Shown here piece by piece: positions 94 through 8,440 of a DNA stretch of 8,679 nucleotides (position 1 is the first letter of the stretch; the number at the start of each line of letters is the position of its first letter). The notes under the pieces were generated by a model, which had not been told where the DNA came from, did no database searches, and saw nothing but the letters and a program-made list of their open reading frames with translations. The DNA is taken from NCBI GenBank assembly GCA_021820805.1, contig JAKADF010000114.1, positions 1 through 8,679 of the forward strand. Reading direction: 5' to 3'. The translations under genes and the position numbers were made by a program. The DNA is from Bacillota bacterium (GTDB taxonomy: Bacteria > Bacillota > Bacilli > Alicyclobacillales > Alicyclobacillaceae).

Positions 94-1101
94 TTATACA
101 GACAGTACAATTTTTGGGTATTGTGCGGGTCCGAATATCTGTTCCTCAAAAGATTGTTTGCCTTGTTCAAGCGGGCGAATATCCAACCAAGATTTGTCCG
201 GAACTACTTCTTTTCTTTGAATTAGAGATAGCCCATGTGCAAAATTTCTGTCTGAGTAACTAAACGAACCTGCAATCTCTATCTCTTTCCTGACAATTAC
301 GTTGCCTGGGACAACTGTATCATCCTCATGAAGGCCAATAAATACAATACGTCCGCCGTTTTCAACCATCTCAATTCCTTGTTGCCGTGTCAAAGGAAGC
401 CCGACAGCATCGATGACTTTTTGCAGCGATCCGCCCGTAATTTCTTTCACCTTCTCAATGGCATTCACATGTTTTGGATTCAGTGTGTGCGTAGCGCCAA
501 ACAGCTTCCCTTGTTCCAACCGTTCGTCATTTGTATCAATTAAGATACGCTCACCCGCTCCTTGGAGACTTGCTGCTTTCAAAGAGAAAAGGCCTATAAT
601 TCCGGCGCCAAATACAACAACATTATCTTCCAGGGATACGCCTGCCCTTTCTGCAGCTCGGATACCACAAGCCAGCGGTTCCACAAGTGTGCCCGCAACC
701 TCATCATCAACAAAGAAACACGAACTTGCAGGAACTTTAACGTACTCTGCAAAAGCTCCTGGATGATGGATACCAATAATACTGCGATGAATACAATTCT
801 GTTGGTCGCCCTGTTTGCACATACGACAACACCCACAAGTAATCAGCGGATTAACTACAACCAAATTACCCGGCTTAAACTCAGTAACACCCTCCCCTGT
901 CTCAACCACTTCACCGGTAAATTCGTGTCCCATGATAAGAGGAGGTTTACGCAGGCTATTTTCACCGAGATAGCCCGAAAGGTCTGAACCACATATTCCT
1001 GCATAGCGTGTTTTTAATACCACTTCTCCTTTTTGGGCTTCTGGCATGGGGATTTCTTGGAGCTTAAATTCACGAGGATTTGTCCATACGAGTGCTTTCA
1101 T
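94..1101 (-). CDS. Zinc-dependent medium-chain dehydrogenase (sugar, polyol or sugar-acid oxidoreductase)
   Basis: This 335-residue protein is a complete medium-chain dehydrogenase/reductase of the sorbitol/threonine dehydrogenase type, which oxidises a secondary alcohol with NAD(P)+. The catalytic zinc ligands are visible as Cys37 (GICGSD), His59-Glu60 (GHEFTG) and Glu141 (VEPLACG). The structural zinc site is Cys89, Cys92, Cys95 and Cys103. The nucleotide fold shows GAGIIG at 165-170, and Asp189 at the end of the next strand favours NAD+ over NADP+. I chose the ATG at 1101 because GGGAGGT sits 6 bases upstream and the family N-terminus (MKALVWTNP) begins there; an in-frame ATG 24 codons earlier adds only a non-homologous tail running back into the previous gene. 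It is the last gene of the cluster, 34 bases after the second dehydratase. I infer that it makes or interconverts the aldonic acid precursor; the exact substrate cannot be read from sequence. Confidence 0.9.
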   Translation of the reverse strand: MKALVWTNPREFKLQEIPMPEAQKGEVVLKTRYAGICGSDLSGYLGENSLRKPPLIMGHEFTGEVVETGEGVTEFKPGNLVVVNPLITCGCCRMCKQGDQQNCIHRSIIGIHHPGAFAEYVKVPASSCFFVDDEVAGTLVEPLACGIRAAERAGVSLEDNVVVFGAGIIGLFSLKAASLQGAGERILIDTNDERLEQGKLFGATHTLNPKHVNAIEKVKEITGGSLQKVIDAVGLPLTRQQGIEMVENGGRIVFIGLHEDDTVVPGNVIVRKEIEIAGSFSYSDRNFAHGLSLIQRKEVVPDKSWLDIRPLEQGKQSFEEQIFGPAQYPKIVLSV

Positions 1102-1135: not shown

Positions 1136-2347
1136 CTAGTCACTTTCTTTGCTTGTCTTAATCGTAACATCACTCCGTTTAAATACCTCTGGCCTAAGTT
1201 TCGTACCTAGTCCCGGCGCTTGAAGAGGATACACAAAGCCTTTTTCGACTTTCGGCAGCTCTGTAACTAATTCCGAATACCAACTGCTGTAAAACGCACG
1301 TACAACTTCTTGAATAAACGCGTTTGGCGTTGCCATCGAAAGGTGGGAATCCACAACAAATGACACCGGGCCCACACAATCATGAGTAGCTACAGGCAGT
1401 TCATATGTGTCTGCGAAAGATGCAATACGTCTCCCCTCTGAAATTCCGCCAGTCCAAGTTGGATCAAATATAATTACGCCAGCTGCCTGACTTTCCAAAA
1501 TATCTCGGTATGCAAAGCGAGTCCCAAGCGTTTCGCTGGCTGCTGTCGGAACGCGTGTACTTGACGCAAACTCGCGCAAAGCCTGAACGTTATCCATTCG
1601 AATCGGATCTTCATACCAGAAGGGATTATATTCTTCTAGCGCCTTAGCAATATGCTTGGCTGTCCTTAAATCCCACTGAGAGTGCAATTCAACCATAATT
1701 TCAATTTTATCTCCCACGGCTTTGCGGATTTTCTCGAATGGTTCTAAGGCTCTCTTCAACTCAGAGGACGTAATCATGTGTCCGCCAGAAGCTTGTGCAT
1801 ACGGGTCAAAAGGCCAAATCTTCATTCCCATATACCCTTCCTCAAGGAGGCTGTGCGCCAATTCATCCGCTCTTTGCAAGAAGGCTTCTAAGTCTTCATA
1901 AGGACCCTCAGCTTTACCAGTCCCCCAATTATCGACAGGCAGATGTGCATCCTTTGGACGTTTCCTCGTGTACTGGTATCCCGCGCAGGTATTATACGCA
2001 GGTATTTTGTCTCGGACGAGCCCTCCTAACAGTTGATAAATTGGCTGCCCGCTCGCTTGGCCAAGAATATCCCAGAGTGCGATGTCAATTGCCGATCTTC
2101 CACGGTTTTCGACGCCAGTACTGCGGGATCCGACGAAACCGACCATTTGCCGCCAGTGCTTTTCAATCGTCAGAGGACTTTGCCCGAGCAAAACAGAAGC
2201 TGCGGTATCGTGAATCCACGCTTCAACAGACGAGGTGCCAAAATACGTTTCACCAAGTCCAATTAGTCCCTCATCAGTATGAACTTGTACAAAACAGATG
2301 TTTGGAAACTCTTCTATGCGAATCGTTTCTAAAGCAGTGATTTTCAT
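1136..2347 (-). CDS. Mandelate racemase/muconate lactonizing family sugar-acid dehydratase, copy B (galactonate-dehydratase-like)
   Basis: This 403-residue enolase-superfamily protein probably dehydrates an aldonic acid to a 2-keto-3-deoxy acid using Mg2+. It has an N-terminal capping domain to about residue 120 and a C-terminal barrel. Metal ligands line up as Glu220 (VELH), Glu246 (YEDP) and Glu272 (ASETLG). The acid/base set is Lys176 (MKIW), His222, Asp295 (FDPTW) and His322 (THDC), matching the His-Asp dyad plus Asp/Glu-x-His arrangement of E. coli D-galactonate dehydratase. The first ligand is Glu rather than Asp. Compared with copy A it carries roughly 20 extra residues around 123-150, between cap and barrel. 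The ATG at 2347 is chosen because AGGGGGAG lies 5 bases upstream; an upstream in-frame alternative adds 12 unlikely residues. It lies 39 bases after the enolase paralogue. The specific aldonate is unknown; rhamnonate, fuconate, galactonate or gluconate types are all possible. Confidence 0.88.
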   Translation of the reverse strand: MKITALETIRIEEFPNICFVQVHTDEGLIGLGETYFGTSSVEAWIHDTAASVLLGQSPLTIEKHWRQMVGFVGSRSTGVENRGRSAIDIALWDILGQASGQPIYQLLGGLVRDKIPAYNTCAGYQYTRKRPKDAHLPVDNWGTGKAEGPYEDLEAFLQRADELAHSLLEEGYMGMKIWPFDPYAQASGGHMITSSELKRALEPFEKIRKAVGDKIEIMVELHSQWDLRTAKHIAKALEEYNPFWYEDPIRMDNVQALREFASSTRVPTAASETLGTRFAYRDILESQAAGVIIFDPTWTGGISEGRRIASFADTYELPVATHDCVGPVSFVVDSHLSMATPNAFIQEVVRAFYSSWYSELVTELPKVEKGFVYPLQAPGLGTKLRPEVFKRSDVTIKTSKESD

Positions 2348-2386: not shown

Positions 2387-3706
2387 TCACTTCCCAAGTA
2401 TTTGACTGCAAAACTGCAAAGCACCAAGCTCTTCCTCCAGGCGAAACAGTTGATTATATTTGGCCAACCTTTCCGAACGTGTAATCGATCCGATTTTGAT
2501 TTGACCGGCCTTCGTTCCAACAGCGAGATCTACCATAAATGTGTCTTCTGTCTCACCGGACCGTGCAGATACAACTGTTCGGTACCCATTTTTACGCGCC
2601 AGTCGTATGGCGTCGAGCGTTTCAGTGAGCGTACCCACTTGGTTAAACTTGATGAGAACGGCATTGCCTACACCAGTCTGTATGCCGTGTTCGATACGCG
2701 GCACTGAAGTAGTGAATAAATCATCACCAAGCACCTGAATTCGGCTGCCAAATGCCTTGGTTAACTTTTCCCAGCCTGACCAGTCATCTTCTGCCAGACC
2801 ATCCTCAATAGAAATAATAGGATACTGTTCTACCCAAGATGACAACACCTCGACCATTTGGCTGGAATCGAGATATCGCTCTTCCTTCGCAAGTCGATAA
2901 ACGCCATCATTATAAAAATGAGTCGAAGCTACATCAATTGCAATTGCCCCAGTTCGGTTTGGCTCAAGTCCAGCTCTTTCAATTGCCAGTGTGAGCACCT
3001 CAAGTGCTTCTTCATTTGTGGAGAGATTCGGACCAAGCCCGCCTTCATCTGCCACCAAACGTATCTCATGACCGCGGCTTTTCAAGATATCGCGCGCCGC
3101 ATGGTAGACATCGAATACTCGCCGAATTGCTTCACTATAGGTAGAGGATCCGATAGGTACAAACAGAAAATCCTGAATATCGATTTGACCGCCCGCATGT
3201 AGCCCGCCGCTTAAGATGTTAACCATCGGTATCGGCAGTACGAATGAATCATCCGCATCCGAATATTTTGTGTTTTCTTGCTCTGCGCTTTGACCAAATA
3301 GTTCAGCAATATGTTTGTAAAGCGGCTGTCCTTTTGATTTCGCAGCAGCAACTGCGGCCGCAAGGGAGGCACCTAGTAACGAATTTGCACCAAGCAGACT
3401 TTTGTCGGGAGTGCCGTCAAGAGCAAGCAATTTTGTATCAAGTGCAGATTGGTCACTTACGTCCATACTTTTCAAGGCCGCTGTGATAGTTGTATTTACA
3501 TTTTCTACCGCCTGTAAAACCCCTTTTCCACGATAAGCGTTTGGGTCGCCATCACGCAGCTCCAAAGCTTCGTGACGCCCGGTTGAGGCACCTGACGGAA
3601 CAATTGCCCGGCCAATCGTTCCATCCGTAAGTGCAATATCTACTTCAACGGTTGGATTGCCGCGCGAGTCTAGAACTTGGCGGGCATGGACTGACTGAAT
3701 GTTCAT
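2387..3706 (-). CDS. Enolase paralogue with altered active site
   Basis: This 439-residue protein is clearly of the true enolase family (2-phosphoglycerate to phosphoenolpyruvate), with SRGNPTVEVD at 14-23, the mobile loop GASTG at 39-43, metal ligands Asp258, Glu301 and Asp328, the general-acid Glu221 (DEGG), the base Lys353 (LIKFNQ) and Lys404 (GQIK). It departs from ordinary enolases at key places. The usual NGG-x-HA-x-N is SGGLHAGG (166-173). The active-site Glu of the Q-E-F motif is Asp179 (yeast Glu168). The His of S-H-R-S-G-E-T is Ala381 (yeast His373), although Arg382 and Ser383 are kept; I checked both codons in the DNA. Residues about 138-153 are extra, and the C-terminal tail is unlike the usual one. 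The gene has its own ribosome site (AAGGGAG) and starts 22 bases after the kinase gene. No glycolytic genes surround it, so I infer a specialised substrate or a pathway-dedicated enolase. A weak housekeeping enolase remains possible. Confidence 0.9.
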   Translation of the reverse strand: MNIQSVHARQVLDSRGNPTVEVDIALTDGTIGRAIVPSGASTGRHEALELRDGDPNAYRGKGVLQAVENVNTTITAALKSMDVSDQSALDTKLLALDGTPDKSLLGANSLLGASLAAAVAAAKSKGQPLYKHIAELFGQSAEQENTKYSDADDSFVLPIPMVNILSGGLHAGGQIDIQDFLFVPIGSSTYSEAIRRVFDVYHAARDILKSRGHEIRLVADEGGLGPNLSTNEEALEVLTLAIERAGLEPNRTGAIAIDVASTHFYNDGVYRLAKEERYLDSSQMVEVLSSWVEQYPIISIEDGLAEDDWSGWEKLTKAFGSRIQVLGDDLFTTSVPRIEHGIQTGVGNAVLIKFNQVGTLTETLDAIRLARKNGYRTVVSARSGETEDTFMVDLAVGTKAGQIKIGSITRSERLAKYNQLFRLEEELGALQFCSQILGK

Positions 3707-3728
3707 TTATCGCAACTCCCTTCGAGGT

Positions 3729-4715
3729 TTAAGGCTTTGCACCTATGACCTCACGGTACAGCACTGTAACATCTGCCATATCCGCAGCATTACGGCTTAA
3801 TAACGAGATCCCAATTTGCCGAACCTGCTCCTTCATCTGCTCATTTAGGTACTCGACTGGTGATTTACCGTCCACCCTCGCAAGCAACAGTGCACCTGTT
3901 GTCTGCCAAGTGATGGCACGAAACTGGGATTCTGACAACACACCAACCACTTCAAAGTAGCTTCGGTAGAATGTATCAACTAGAGCTAAATAAGAAGCAA
4001 AGTTTAACTTAGCGTAAACCGCCTTCAGTAAAAGATGGTGCATCATAAAGCTGATATCAAATGACGCATGCCCCGCATGCGCCACTTCCCAGTCTAAAAC
4101 GACAGGTTGATTCTGTTTTGTACGCAAAAGCACATTTTTAGGGCTGAAATCCCCATGTACCAATACATCAGATGTACTCATCATCGAGTCAATCACTTCA
4201 TCAAGATACGTTCTATACTCGGGATAAAGGTCTAAAATAAATTCAAAGTATGGAGAAATTCGCAGTTGGTGAAAAAGTGTTTTGTCAGAAAAAGGCGTGA
4301 GATATTCGGAGTTTGCAAATGTAAGCCTATGAACTGTTGCTAAAAAACGACCAAGCATGGTTGCAACTTGTACATCTACATGACCTTGCAAAAGTTTATG
4401 TTTCCAAGTCAGTCCTTCTACATATTCCATAGCAAACAAGCCATTTGCCTCATCAACAAACAGCACCTTTGGCACAAACCGAGGAGCCATTTGTGATATT
4501 AGCTGCAAGCACAATCGTTCAATAATGTTGCGACTAGTGTTTGCAAACCAATCTTCCTTAACTCGCAATTTTGGGAGAGCCCGCTTGAGTACGAAGCTTT
4601 GTTCTGGTGTCTGCACGCGGACAACATCACTTGACACCCCGCCTGGCATTGCTTCAACTTTTACTTCGTCGGATTTTAAATAAGCGGAAACAGCAGCTGG
4701 ATCAGACAAATCCAT
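3729..4715 (-). CDS. APH/methylthioribose-kinase-fold small-molecule kinase
   Basis: With the start chosen here the protein has 328 residues and the aminoglycoside phosphotransferase (APH) kinase fold. Visible elements are a glycine-containing nucleotide loop (GGVSS, 25-29), the ATP-contacting Lys44 (FVLKRA), a hinge MEYVEG (96-101), the Brenner-type catalytic loop HGDFSPKN (187-194, with Asp189 and Asn194) and the metal motif Asp208-Trp-Glu210, followed by a second FDI near 219-221. The D-x-E form and the text after it resemble methylthioribose and choline kinases more than antibiotic kinases. The longest reading starts at a GTG at 4790 with no ribosome site; the ATG at 4715 has GGAGGT seven bases upstream, so I take that. 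It sits between the dehydrogenase and enolase genes, which suggests a metabolic role: phosphorylating a hydroxy acid, sugar or sugar acid that feeds the enolase paralogue. Substrate is inferred, not shown. Confidence 0.85.
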   Translation of the reverse strand: MDLSDPAAVSAYLKSDEVKVEAMPGGVSSDVVRVQTPEQSFVLKRALPKLRVKEDWFANTSRNIIERLCLQLISQMAPRFVPKVLFVDEANGLFAMEYVEGLTWKHKLLQGHVDVQVATMLGRFLATVHRLTFANSEYLTPFSDKTLFHQLRISPYFEFILDLYPEYRTYLDEVIDSMMSTSDVLVHGDFSPKNVLLRTKQNQPVVLDWEVAHAGHASFDISFMMHHLLLKAVYAKLNFASYLALVDTFYRSYFEVVGVLSESQFRAITWQTTGALLLARVDGKSPVEYLNEQMKEQVRQIGISLLSRNAADMADVTVLYREVIGAKP

Positions 4716-4778: not shown

Positions 4779-4794
4779 TTGGTTTACCACAAAA

Positions 4795-5568
4795 TTAGTT
4801 GAATTTACCTGCAGTTACGCCGCCATCTACAATCAGGCCGCTGCCCATTACATATTTCGCTTCATCTGAAGCCAGATACAAAGCGGCATATGCAACGTCT
4901 TCAGGCGTCCCTAATTCATTTCCGAGTTGGCGCTGTTTCAATTGTTCAATTGCCTCTGATGGATCGTCATACGACTTTTTCAAGTAATCTTCTACAAATG
5001 GAGTATAAATTGTCCCAGGTAACAGGGCGTTCACACGGATTCCATGAGGAGCATAATCGACTTGCATTGATTTTGTCATCGCAAGAACAGCACCCTTGGT
5101 TGCGGCATAAGCTGCTCTGCGCAACAATCCAGTATGCACAATACAGGATGACATGTTGATAATAACACCACGTTTTTGCTCCAGCATAACAGGTACAATC
5201 TCTTTCGAAACCACATAGACACCAGTTATATTCACAGCAAGCACGGCGTCCCATAGCTTACGCGGAACTTCATGCAGCTCACCAACAGCACTAATACCCG
5301 CATTATTGAACAAGACATCGACTCGGCCATGGCGATCGATTACTGCTTTTTTCCACGCACTAACGCTCTCTTCGTCTGTCACATCCACATGATGCCAAAA
5401 CGCACGACCGCCAGCTTCTTTAATCCGCTTCACCGTTGCTTCTGCCGCAGCATCGTCAACTTCGGCAATCTCCACAACAGCCCCTTCGCGCGCAAATACT
5501 TCTGCAGTTGCCGATCCGATTCCTTTTCCAGCACCTGTAATAAGACATACCTTGTCATCTAAACGCAT
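4795..5568 (-). CDS. Short-chain dehydrogenase/reductase, probable 2-keto-3-deoxy acid 4-dehydrogenase
   Basis: This 257-residue classical SDR oxidises a hydroxyl group with a nicotinamide cofactor in the cytoplasm. The cofactor loop TGAGKGIG is at 11-18, the Asp62-Val pair at 62-63, NNAG at 88-91, Asn113, and the catalytic Ser141, Tyr154 and Lys158 (YAATK) are all present. The acidic residue Glu36 at the end of the second strand favours NAD+. The family C-terminus (SGLIVDGG) is intact. The ATG at 5568 follows AAAGGAGAGG. The gene lies 52 bases downstream of the FAH hydrolase. SDR next to FAH hydrolase and an enolase-superfamily dehydratase is the known pattern of 2-keto-3-deoxy-L-rhamnonate, -fuconate and -pentonate 4-dehydrogenases, and I infer that role. 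Other sugar or sugar-acid dehydrogenations cannot be excluded, since SDR substrate range is poorly predicted from sequence. Confidence 0.88.
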   Translation of the reverse strand: MRLDDKVCLITGAGKGIGSATAEVFAREGAVVEIAEVDDAAAEATVKRIKEAGGRAFWHHVDVTDEESVSAWKKAVIDRHGRVDVLFNNAGISAVGELHEVPRKLWDAVLAVNITGVYVVSKEIVPVMLEQKRGVIINMSSCIVHTGLLRRAAYAATKGAVLAMTKSMQVDYAPHGIRVNALLPGTIYTPFVEDYLKKSYDDPSEAIEQLKQRQLGNELGTPEDVAYAALYLASDEAKYVMGSGLIVDGGVTAGKFN

Positions 5569-5620: not shown

Positions 5621-6493
5621 TCAGCGGCTAACCATGCGGTTTTTCAACTTTCCTAGACCTTCGATTTCAACTACAACTTCTTCTCCTGCTTCGAGCCAAT
5701 GCTGCTCATCTTTAGGGAATCCTAAAATTACACCTTCTGGTGTACCTGTCAAAATCACATCTCCAGGCTGAAGCACCATATAACGAGACAGATAGGAAAT
5801 CAGCTCTTTACAGGAGAAAATCATGTCCGACGTATTTGAGTTTTGTACTAAATCGCCGTTGCGGTAAGTGCGAATATTTAAATCGTTTGGATTCAAAACC
5901 TCATCTGCAGTCGCAACTAAAGGTCCAAGAGGTGAGAACTGAGGGCAAGTTTTGCCAAGCAGCCACTGGGAAGTGCGCATCTGAAGATCGCGAGCCGACA
6001 AGTCATTTGCGTTACAATAACCAAATACATAATCGAGAGCTTCATCTTCTGATACATCTTCCGCTGTTTTTCCAATAACTATCGCGAGTTCAGCCTCGTA
6101 ATCTACCTGGTTTGAACCTTTAGGCAAGCAAATCTCTTCCCCATAGGCAGCAACAGTATCAGAGAACTTGCTGAAAACAACTGGATTTGTAGGAATCGGA
6201 GAGTTCGTCTCAATGGCATGTTTACGATAGTTCAAACCAATGCATATAACTTTTCCCGGTTGTTCAAGCGCTGGCCGATAGGTTACATCATCGACCGAAA
6301 CCACTCTGGCAGGCACTTCACCAGCTCGAACTCGTTTTTGGAGCTCTGCAAAAACCTCTGGCTGCTGCAATAAGCTGCCAAGTCCTGTTGGAAAATCGGA
6401 CGAAAGCCATGATTCATCACAAACTACAAAACCTCCGTCAACTTGCACGCCAATACGGTCGTTACCTTGCACCTTTAAATTTGCTAATTTCAT
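5621..6493 (-). CDS. Fumarylacetoacetate hydrolase family protein, probable 2,4-diketo-3-deoxy acid hydrolase
   Basis: This 290-residue protein has the FAH fold, which uses Mg2+ or Mn2+ to cleave a C-C bond next to a ketone. An N-terminal domain of about 75 residues precedes the catalytic part. Family landmarks are GLNYRKHAIE (86-95), the metal ligands Glu133 and Glu135 in DYEAELA and Asp164 in NDLSARDLQ, Lys181 in LGKTC, and GTPEGV (250-255). Length and motifs match the ~285-residue bacterial group containing 2,4-diketo-3-deoxy-L-fuconate and -rhamnonate hydrolases, ureidoglycolate-lyase-like proteins and acylpyruvases. The ATG at 6493 is preceded by AGGGAG. It lies 70 bases after dehydratase A and 52 before the SDR. 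With those neighbours I infer hydrolysis of a 2,4-diketo-3-deoxy acid to pyruvate plus a hydroxy acid: lactate from 6-deoxyhexonates, glycolate from pentonates, glycerate from hexonates. Acylpyruvase or decarboxylase activity is the main alternative. Confidence 0.88.
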   Translation of the reverse strand: MKLANLKVQGNDRIGVQVDGGFVVCDESWLSSDFPTGLGSLLQQPEVFAELQKRVRAGEVPARVVSVDDVTYRPALEQPGKVICIGLNYRKHAIETNSPIPTNPVVFSKFSDTVAAYGEEICLPKGSNQVDYEAELAIVIGKTAEDVSEDEALDYVFGYCNANDLSARDLQMRTSQWLLGKTCPQFSPLGPLVATADEVLNPNDLNIRTYRNGDLVQNSNTSDMIFSCKELISYLSRYMVLQPGDVILTGTPEGVILGFPKDEQHWLEAGEEVVVEIEGLGKLKNRMVSR

Positions 6494-6563: not shown

Positions 6564-7766
6564 TTAAAATCGATTTCCTAAATCATTTGCCCATGGGTCG
6601 CCGGCTGTCCAACCGACGCTCACAGTATTATCCTTTGTGACTTCCTTGGCAATACCCTTGCCTTCTAAAAACTCCTCTTTCAGCTTAAGACCAAGTCCTG
6701 GCCGCTCTGACACAAACAGTTGTCCCTGTTCAATGCGCGGCGCTTTATCGACAATGTCTTTATAAAAGGTTCTGTAGAAAGACCGTACAGTTTCTACCTT
6801 TAATAAATTAGGAATGTGTGACGCAACATGCGCGTACGCAGCTGTTTGCACAGGACCGCCACAGTTATGTGGTGCAATGGGGAGTTGGTACACGGATGCA
6901 AGTACTGCAATCTTCAGTATTTCTGATATACCGCCTACCCAGCAGATGTCTGGCATTATATAATCCGCAGCATGATGCTCCAAAATAGGAAGGAATTGAT
7001 GACGGGTAAACAAGCGTTCACTCACGCACAGAGGAGTCGCCGTTACGTCCTTTAATTCTTTCATCGCTGCTGCATTATCCGCAGGCATCATGTCTTCAAG
7101 CCACATTAAATTATACGGTTCCACCGCACGGGCAATTTTCTTCGCAGTAGGCAGATCCCAACATGCATGGCCCTCAAGTGCCACCTCCATACGGTCGCCA
7201 CATTCTTCTCGGATGGCTGCTAGTATGGATACGCCTTTCTGTAAGTCCCCTTCTGATATACCATGGCCCCTGGTCTTTTCGCTAAATCCGTCGAAAGGCC
7301 AAATTTTCATGGCTGAAATACCATCACTCATGAGGCTTTGTGCTAGTTTTCTAGGGTCATTCAAAAACAATTCTCTGTCGTCATACCCCCCATGGCTTAC
7401 ACACGTGTTGTATATTGGGATACCATCCCGCACCTTGCCGCCAAGCAGGCGATAGACAGGTTGCCCTGTAATTTGCCCTAGCAAGTCCCAAAGGGCAATA
7501 TCAACAGCACTGATGGCCCGCGTCTCCGCACCCGCATAACCATGGTAGTGAACCACACTAAACATGTCATGCCAATGCCGCTCAATATCCCTTGGATCTT
7601 GTCCAACCAGCATTCTAGACAACACATCATGTATGATTCGACGAACCGAATCAACTCGAGGCGTCGTCTCGCCTGTTCCAACAAGCCCATCATTTGTGTA
7701 AATGCGAACCCATAGCAACTGTGGATGGTCTTGTGCCTGGATTGTTTCTATTTTACTTATCTTCAA
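6564..7766 (-). CDS. Mandelate racemase/muconate lactonizing family sugar-acid dehydratase, copy A (galactonate-dehydratase-like)
   Basis: This 400-residue enolase-superfamily enzyme probably removes water from an aldonic acid to give a 2-keto-3-deoxy acid. The capping domain spans roughly 1-120. The barrel carries Lys154 (MKIWPFD), metal ligands Glu198, Glu224 (LEDM) and Glu250 (SERL), and the acid/base residues His200 (EGH), Asp273 (MPDICW) and His300 (APHN). These match the Asp-x-His and His-Asp layout of D-galactonate dehydratase, with Glu in place of the first Asp; the tail (DPWANDLGNRF) also resembles that family. The start is a TTG at 7766: an in-frame TAA lies six codons upstream, no ATG or GTG fits, and MKISKIET matches the family N-terminus. 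The ribosome site is weak (GAGAG about 10 bases away), suggesting low translation. It is first after the regulator, 44 bases downstream. It shares motifs with copy B but differs at the His loop (PHNC against THDC), which suggests distinct substrates. Confidence 0.88.
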   Translation of the reverse strand: MKISKIETIQAQDHPQLLWVRIYTNDGLVGTGETTPRVDSVRRIIHDVLSRMLVGQDPRDIERHWHDMFSVVHYHGYAGAETRAISAVDIALWDLLGQITGQPVYRLLGGKVRDGIPIYNTCVSHGGYDDRELFLNDPRKLAQSLMSDGISAMKIWPFDGFSEKTRGHGISEGDLQKGVSILAAIREECGDRMEVALEGHACWDLPTAKKIARAVEPYNLMWLEDMMPADNAAAMKELKDVTATPLCVSERLFTRHQFLPILEHHAADYIMPDICWVGGISEILKIAVLASVYQLPIAPHNCGGPVQTAAYAHVASHIPNLLKVETVRSFYRTFYKDIVDKAPRIEQGQLFVSERPGLGLKLKEEFLEGKGIAKEVTKDNTVSVGWTAGDPWANDLGNRF

Positions 7767-7810
7767 CTGTAACCATCTCTCTTATCATTCAATTGGGATG
7801 CTTAACCAGA

Positions 7811-8440
7811 TTACTGAAGAAAGGGTTTCCAAGAATCATCCAGCGCTAAGTGTTCCGATAATTGATGGGTTAATTCGTTATTATCTCGCAACTTAATGGC
7901 TTCTAAAATAGGTCGATGACGCTCTGCAAGTGCCTCCATATCGTCGAAATATTTCATCGTAACGTTTGCGATGAAGCGCCGAATTTGGCCATCCATTGTA
8001 AGCCACAAACGCAAAAATACTGTTTGCTTAGCACCTTCAATCAACGAACGATGAAACTCAACATCATTAGCAATCAAATGCGTCATGTTTCCTGCACGCG
8101 CGGCTGCCAGCATACTGTCAAAAGAATGTTGCAGAACCGCCAATTCATCTTGCCCTGCACGTTTCAGCAGTATTTTTCCCGATGTTATTTCTATCAATCT
8201 GCGCATCTCGAATAACTGCTCCATCTCACTAAATGACATGTGAGATACATACGTACCGGTATGACGGACTGTTTCTACCAACCCTTCCTGTCCCAGCCGC
8301 TGCAAGGCCTCACGCACCGGAGCCTGGCTCGTACCGAACGACTTTGCAACTTGCAGCTCAACAATCCTATCACCTGGGCGTAACTGCCCTGTGATAATTT
8401 CTAATCTAAGAGCTGCAAAAATCTTATCGCTCAAGATCAC
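7811..8440 (-). CDS. GntR-family transcriptional regulator, FadR/FCD subgroup
   Basis: This 209-residue protein has an N-terminal winged helix-turn-helix (about 1-66) with typical text: LSDKIFAALRLEIITGQLRPGD, then the recognition region GTSQAPVREALQRLGQEGLVE. It is followed by an all-helical FCD ligand-binding domain. Candidate metal and ligand residues in that domain are Asp126 and His130 (DVEFH), His175 (ERHRPI) and His192 or His197. FCD regulators commonly sense sugar acids or other organic acids and repress adjacent catabolic genes. The start is a GTG at 8440, which is immediately before the conserved LSD; the ribosome site is poor. It is the first gene of the cluster, 44 bases ahead of dehydratase A, so it is probably autoregulated. 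The promoter dyad at 8508-8534 and the leader dyad at 8456-8475 are its most likely operators. The effector, probably a pathway aldonate or 2-keto-3-deoxy acid, is inferred. Confidence 0.9.
   Translation of the reverse strand: MILSDKIFAALRLEIITGQLRPGDRIVELQVAKSFGTSQAPVREALQRLGQEGLVETVRHTGTYVSHMSFSEMEQLFEMRRLIEITSGKILLKRAGQDELAVLQHSFDSMLAAARAGNMTHLIANDVEFHRSLIEGAKQTVFLRLWLTMDGQIRRFIANVTMKYFDDMEALAERHRPILEAIKLRDNNELTHQLSEHLALDDSWKPFLQ

Follow-up and report, generated by a model that had tools for sequence, protein, structure and literature searches.

A widespread enolase-like clade coupled to an APH-fold kinase: a candidate kinase-dehydratase module for a 2-phospho acid

The window, by which we mean the whole stretch of 8,679 nucleotides that was analysed, carries eight genes, all of which are located on the minus strand, in the order GntR/FCD regulator, MR/MLE protein 1, FAH-fold enzyme, short-chain dehydrogenase (SDR), APH-fold kinase, enolase paralogue, MR/MLE protein 2 and zinc alcohol dehydrogenase (Table 1). 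A preliminary description of this DNA had placed an APH-fold kinase and an enolase paralogue 22 bases apart within a dehydratase-SDR-FAH cluster, and both the coordinates and the Pfam and NCBIfam matches agree with it, the enolase gene running from an ATG at 3706 to a stop at 2387. The families of a diketo-hydrolase gene set (dehydratase, 4-dehydrogenase and FAH enzyme) are present, none of which reaches an equivalog model; the FAH-fold enzyme scores 217 bits against NF053535 (2,4-didehydro-3-deoxy-L-rhamnonate hydrolase), which is below the cut-off of 500. The cluster resembles the L-rhamnonate and L-fuconate diketo-hydrolase pathways in that MR dehydratase, SDR and FAH genes occur together, but differs from them in this low FAH score and in the addition of the kinase-enolase pair; we know of no diketo-hydrolase route that includes such a pair. 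For both MR/MLE proteins, the closest solved entries are 2pod, 4dx3 and 3dip, which have no specific function name, 3dip being labelled as an enolase. No tRNA was found in the window, and the comparison of its DNA with plasmids gave only short similar pieces among the best five matches listed.

Table 1 Genes of the window and exchanged active-site codons of the enolase paralogue.
Feature	Position	Strand	Matches
GntR/FCD regulator	7811..8440	-	PF00392, PF07729
MR/MLE acid-sugar dehydratase-like protein 1	6564..7766	-	PF13378 192.9 bits, PF02746; under every NCBIfam cut-off
FAH-fold hydrolase or dehydratase	5621..6493	-	PF01557 242.3 bits; NF053535 217 bits, cut-off 500
Short-chain dehydrogenase (SDR)	4795..5568	-	PF13561 205.4 bits
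APH-fold kinase, 328 aa, 5-methylthioribose kinase relative	3729..4715	-	
SAR-type enolase paralogue, 439 aa	2387..3706	-	
Codon 166, Ser for Asn (yeast N155)	3209..3211	-	
Codon 179, Asp for Glu (yeast E168)	3170..3172	-	
Codon 381, Ala for His (yeast H373)	2564..2566	-	
Codon 405, Ile for Thr (yeast T397)	2492..2494	-	
MR/MLE protein 2 (start at inner ATG; longest open frame begins at 2383)	1136..2347	-	PF13378 180.9 bits
Zinc alcohol dehydrogenase (start at inner ATG; longest open frame begins at 1173)	94..1101	-	PF08240, PF00107

The kinase frame is open from a GTG at 4790; a GGAGG and an ATG place the start at 4715, which is most likely the true start and coincides with the end coordinate given in the preliminary description. 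The protein read from this ATG is as long as database entry P0001 (328 amino acids). It matches the Pfam APH family (PF01636) with 69.3 bits (cut-off 23.2) and carries the APH signature HGD..N and DxE, of which H212, G213, D214, N219, D233 and E235 are invariant or nearly invariant among 44 rows. Its closest relatives are 50-55% identical, including two Alicyclobacillus species at 52%, which suggests a host among the Bacillota. With 5-methylthioribose kinase (MTRK, TIGR01767) the identity is 17-19%, and since the score of 78.3 bits lies far under the cut-off of 275, we ruled out that the protein is an MTR kinase; unlike MTRK, it has its own C-terminal ARVDGKSPVEYL-like stretch. The known glycerate 2-kinases (PF02595 and PF05161) would likewise supply an enolase, but they belong to other families, and neither is among the Pfam matches of the kinase up to an E value of 0.001.

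The enolase paralogue matches Enolase_N (PF03952) with 186.6 bits, Enolase_C (PF00113) with 341.9 bits and TIGR01060 with 551.6 bits (cut-off 300), and this curated model names it phosphopyruvate hydratase, as do many database entries of its relatives. It is a member of a separate clade, here termed SAR, in which active-site residues are exchanged clade-wide and which is found across many bacterial phyla and in haloarchaea, while the SAR motif pattern gave no match on viral contigs. In contrast to glycolytic enolase (TIGR01060), SAR enolases have Asp in place of E168, Ala in place of H373, Val or Ile in place of T397 and Ser or Gly in place of N155 (yeast enolase numbering). In a comparison of 154 SAR and 46 ordinary rows, representing 188 distinct sequences, position 168 is Asp in all SAR rows and Glu in all ordinary rows, and position 373 is Ala and His, respectively, with the same consistency. 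Because the pattern with which L001-L116 were found includes Ala381, this residue is fixed by choice in these 116 loci, but it was not used for the P relatives or for the 17 Alphaproteobacteria genomes described below, and positions 179, 405 and 166 lie outside the pattern altogether. All 154 SAR rows keep S39, H159, E211, D246, E295, D320, K345, R374, S375 and K396, which cover the base (K345), the acid (E211), three metal ligands and the phosphate and carboxylate contacts. The changes are confined to the vicinity of C3; the residues that bind the 2-phospho acid and take the alpha proton are unchanged, and the conserved residues are likely to form a working site for a 2-phospho acid. H373 of ordinary enolase contacts the substrate. 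For the enolase of M. tuberculosis, the counterpart of E168 is reported to touch the substrate and its Ala mutant to be inactive (PMC10619443). The SAR clade itself splits into two types, SAR-I and SAR-II, one with S38, S166 and G, A or S at 225 and the other with mostly A38, G166 and W225 (window-enolase numbering), which may correspond to two substrates; SAR-I as a single clade has an SH-aLRT value of only 66.

A motif scan of genome contigs yielded at least 116 SAR stretches from many phyla, many of them in metagenome bins whose taxon labels may be wrong. The kinase lies directly upstream on the same strand in 76 of the 82 testable SAR-enolase loci among the matches listed and in none of 40 ordinary-enolase windows, in a comparison for which the SAR windows are off-centre, some of the ordinary-enolase windows are short and gene calls are longest open frames; the other 34 of the 116 listed loci were not scorable, mostly because they were ended by the locus edge. 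Among genomes chosen by the SAR motif, the kinase is present in 48 of 50 (51 of 53 if G106, G188 and G268, which were chosen by the kinase, are added), always as a single copy except in G034, which has two. The two SAR-motif genomes without a kinase are G021 and G038, the latter being a bin. In G021, Bradyrhizobium SRL28, the SAR frame (L037, 1139-1633) spans residues 287-426 only, and no kinase match was found.

The coupling is also apparent in a sample of 190 Alphaproteobacteria that was drawn around G028 without motif selection (the class labels of this sample and of the Bacilli below follow record titles). The kinase occurs in 19 of these genomes, or 18 of 189 after exclusion of the motif-picked centre G028 from the counts. 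A second enolase is present in 17 of the 18 kinase holders and in none of 58 kinase-less genomes (Fisher p 5e-16), a count that covers 77 genomes, namely all 19 kinase holders and 58 of the 171 kinase-less genomes in handle order, and excludes G449, G452, G455, G464, G468, G470 and G471. All 17 second enolases carry D179, A381 and V or I405, as in G028, and the exception is G451, in which the kinase is present and a second enolase is absent. In Bacilli, the kinase was found in 4 of 398 genomes including the centre genome, each of which has two enolases, one of them SAR; in one of these genomes, kinase and SAR enolase are about 15 kb apart. The preliminary description had named a lack of conservation of the pair in related clusters as a reason to abandon its proposal, which has withstood this comparison, since the pair is conserved far beyond the window cluster. 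We also ruled out that the paralogue is an ordinary spare enolase, as the exchanged residues are fixed clade-wide and the copy tracks the kinase.

Two side cases concern other kinase-enolase combinations. In G500, a third enolase (L301, 8352-9911, minus strand) has Glu for H373 and keeps N155, E168 and T397. Behind it, likewise on the minus strand, comes a glycerate-kinase-type gene with DUF4147/MOFRL matches (6955-8304), so that a 2-kinase and an altered enolase may have been paired here independently. A plasmid of Enterobacter chuandaensis (H91; L120, 8205-9476 minus and 9875-10930 plus) carries a 32% identical kinase relative and, in divergent orientation, the gene of a "hypothetical protein" that is related to enolase (30% identity) and has D179, G381, I405 and Lys in place of the acid E211. 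The surrounding genes for peptidase, aminotransferase, oxidoreductase and transporter proteins give the locus the look of a biosynthetic cluster, so that biosynthesis may be a further role for which the pair was recruited. H92 has another 32% identical kinase relative, beside which no enolase is annotated.

Most hosts of the pair are already equipped for the ordinary reactions. A known glycerate-kinase family is encoded in 49 of 53 host genomes (22 with PF02595, 27 with PF05161), and the ordinary enolase motif was found in 46 of 50 SAR genomes, with a further enolase in three of the remaining four; the SAR enolase is an extra copy wherever checked, except in G023. In this Bryobacterales bin (L043 / L140), only the SAR enolase was detected, and neither motif nor protein search gave an ordinary enolase; the bin might be incomplete or, if it is complete, the SAR enolase might serve glycolysis there. 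Among Alphaproteobacteria of at least 2.3 Mb, PF05161 is present in 14 of 18 pair holders and in 27 of 34 other genomes (hand count), i.e. it is not linked to the pair; over all genome sizes the numbers are 15 of 19 holders and 29 of 58 others, PF02595 adding one genome, which is a holder. A replacement of a missing D-glycerate kinase by the pair is ruled out by these two results. Since a glycerate-kinase family and, in nearly all cases, an ordinary enolase are at hand, D-2-phosphoglycerate (D-2PG) is an unlikely substrate.

Gene neighbourhoods elsewhere share several families with the window. Cohnella has the order FAH-ADH-kinase-enolase-MR-ADH, and G106 (Bacilli) has kinase-enolase-MR-MR-GntR; in the latter genome, a lactate-racemase-type gene (PF09861, PF21113) adjoins a PF02595 glycerate kinase (L134, 358-2842, minus strand) at a distance of a few kb from the pair. 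Roseibium and Paracoccus plasmids carry kinase-enolase-FAH-SDR with sugar ABC transporters, and two haloarchaeal plasmids carry kinase-enolase-cupin with KARI-like and several MR and SDR genes, one of them also with RraA. Rhodococcus and Sphingobium loci include extradiol dioxygenase, FAH and 2-hydroxyacid dehydrogenase genes. On two Rhizobium plasmids (L119, 6112-10933; L126, 6103-10933), PEP carboxylase (ppc), 2-hydroxyacid dehydrogenase and kinase form a single run, and the SAR enolase lies about 4-5 kb away inside the adjoining extradiol-dioxygenase cluster. Enterobacter BIGb0383 has kinase-enolase-transporter-hydroxyacid dehydrogenase-hydratase-HpaI aldolase, Methylobacterium has enolase-kinase alone, and in many loci the pair occurs without further partner genes. 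The commonest extra partner is the 2-hydroxyacid dehydrogenase, found in 19 of 116 listed SAR 8-kb windows and in none of 40 ordinary ones (p 0.004). These enzymes belong to the D-specific family, many of them are encoded right behind the enolase, and they are of the glycerate/glyoxylate type (nearest structure 2cuk, 174 bits); in 13 of 131 loci examined, L027 included, the dehydrogenase reaches 289 bits or more when scored against its L027 counterpart. FAH genes occur in 11 of the 116 listed SAR windows and in none of the 40 ordinary ones, which is not significant alone (p 0.067), and SDR genes in 12 and one, respectively. To judge from predicted functions, the shared theme of the neighbours is glycerate-type acids, which would be handled by FAH splitting, 2-keto acid reduction and aldol cleavage.

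Taking the coupling, the altered active site and the neighbourhoods together, we tentatively propose, as an attractive reading that falls short of being probable in its full form, that kinase and SAR enolase jointly form a dedicated module in which an acid is phosphorylated to a 2-phospho acid and this is then dehydrated, L-glycerate being the leading candidate. The more general part, that the module acts on a 2-phospho acid other than D-2PG, is probably correct; it is favoured because a D-2PG route would be redundant and would leave the need of the kinase for its own altered enolase unexplained. The neighbouring catabolic enzymes would free a small 2,3-dihydroxy acid, which the kinase would phosphorylate at its 2-hydroxyl, and in the SAR enolase the conserved lysine would then take the C2 proton and the conserved glutamate would expel the C3 hydroxyl, giving phosphoenolpyruvate (PEP). 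In the window operon, MR dehydratase and SDR would make 2,4-diketo-3-deoxyhexonate, which the FAH enzyme would split into pyruvate and glycerate, and the leading version would proceed from L-glycerate via L-2-phosphoglycerate to PEP. The FAH, SDR and MR genes in the window, Cohnella, Roseibium and Paracoccus fit a glycerate-type source, and ppc beside the kinase in Rhizobium, i.e. in one lineage only, fits PEP as the product. The D-2-phosphoglycerate used by ordinary enolase is evidently not the ester in question, which puts L-glycerate in the lead, and L-glycerate is the simplest candidate, as L-hexonates would yield it and PEP needs no further enzyme; the lactate-racemase-type gene beside the glycerate kinase in G106 favours it weakly. 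Ordinary enolase, to our knowledge, does not use L-glycerate 2-phosphate. That L-glycerate is indeed the acid in question is nevertheless possible but doubtful, and G023 with its SAR enolase only, the kinase without a second enolase in G451 and the p value for FAH count against the favoured reading as a whole.

The retention of K345 and E211 suggests the same hand at C2 as in D-2PG, which counts against L-glycerate, and the D-specific dehydrogenases near the pair suggest that the acid, for SAR-II at least, is of D hand. With a D-configured C2, the change would sit at C3 and the acid would be longer. The kinase might accordingly act at C2 of a longer D-hand 2,3-dihydroxy acid, such as a tetronate, 2,3-dihydroxybutyrate or the sugar acid itself, from which the SAR enolase would make a substituted PEP; smaller residues at 168 and 373 would make room, 155 and 397 are changed too, with the base and acid that act at C2 unaltered, and aldolase and ring-cleavage neighbours as well as the frequent 2-hydroxyacid dehydrogenase are in line with such an acid. 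We nonetheless regard it as rather unlikely, as the pair stands alone in many loci, with no enzyme visible that would use a PEP analogue, and PEP carboxylase is a neighbour elsewhere. Anionic leaving groups (sulfolactate giving PEP and sulfite, or loss of a 3-phosphate) were considered of low probability because a His is lost and T397 has turned aliphatic, and phospholactate was ruled out as a substrate because it has no C3 leaving group.

If the hand were the ordinary one, the kinase would convert D-glycerate to D-2-phosphoglycerate and the paralogue would convert this to PEP, i.e. the pair would be an operon-bound duplicate of known steps, which is unlikely. Every catalytic residue but E168 and H373 is kept, the glycerate/glyoxylate-type dehydrogenases and the PEP carboxylase are suitable neighbours, and G500 appears to pair a MOFRL glycerate kinase with an altered enolase independently; the glycerate kinases already present in the hosts and the lack of a link between the pair and PF05161 stand against this, and two fixed substrate-contact exchanges and the strict coupling to one kinase would be left unexplained. 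The scheme of the preliminary description, in which glycerate is converted via 2-phosphoglycerate to PEP, is supported as far as chemistry, neighbours and ppc are concerned, but not in its D-glycerate version, which would duplicate host enzymes and accounts neither for the E168/H373 exchange nor for the one-to-one coupling. It is also conceivable, but highly improbable, that the SAR enolase abstracts the alpha proton without dehydration and acts as an epimerase, converting L-2-phosphoglycerate (or a different 2-phospho acid) into the D form for use by ordinary enolase. The proton-abstraction residues are kept and the surroundings of the leaving group are changed, in line with such an epimerase, and the diverged relative on the Enterobacter plasmid lacks the acid E211, but within the clade proper all 154 rows keep this acid. 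Racemases do occur in the wider superfamily, according to PMC6946804.

An enolase paralogue with another substrate has a precedent in carboxyphosphonoenolpyruvate synthase of bialaphos biosynthesis. This enzyme differs in serving antibiotic biosynthesis, and we know of no APH kinase partner for it. No description of the kinase-enolase pair was found in the titles and abstracts of papers listed from openly licensed PubMed Central content (CC0, CC BY, CC BY-SA), a set that leaves most subscription papers outside, or in passages of PMC12275187, PMC13228409, PMC6946804 and PMC12965863; the "enolase paralogs" of PMC6946804 are COG4948. While the enolase fold and chemistry are already known, the active-site exchange and the kinase coupling appear to be new, at least to us. 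Since both hands of 2-phosphoglycerate are sold commercially, as indicated by catalogue numbers in the methods of PMC13228409, the question of the substrate is directly testable. On balance, we lean towards a second physiological reaction of the enolase family, in which a widespread clade with its own APH-fold kinase would remove water from some 2-phospho acid that is not D-2PG, e.g. by converting L-2-phosphoglycerate to PEP. Enolase is among the most conserved metabolic enzymes, and the SAR clade would then stand for a branch of central carbon metabolism that has been overlooked, through which bacteria and haloarchaea would gain a phosphorylate-then-dehydrate entry into central metabolism.
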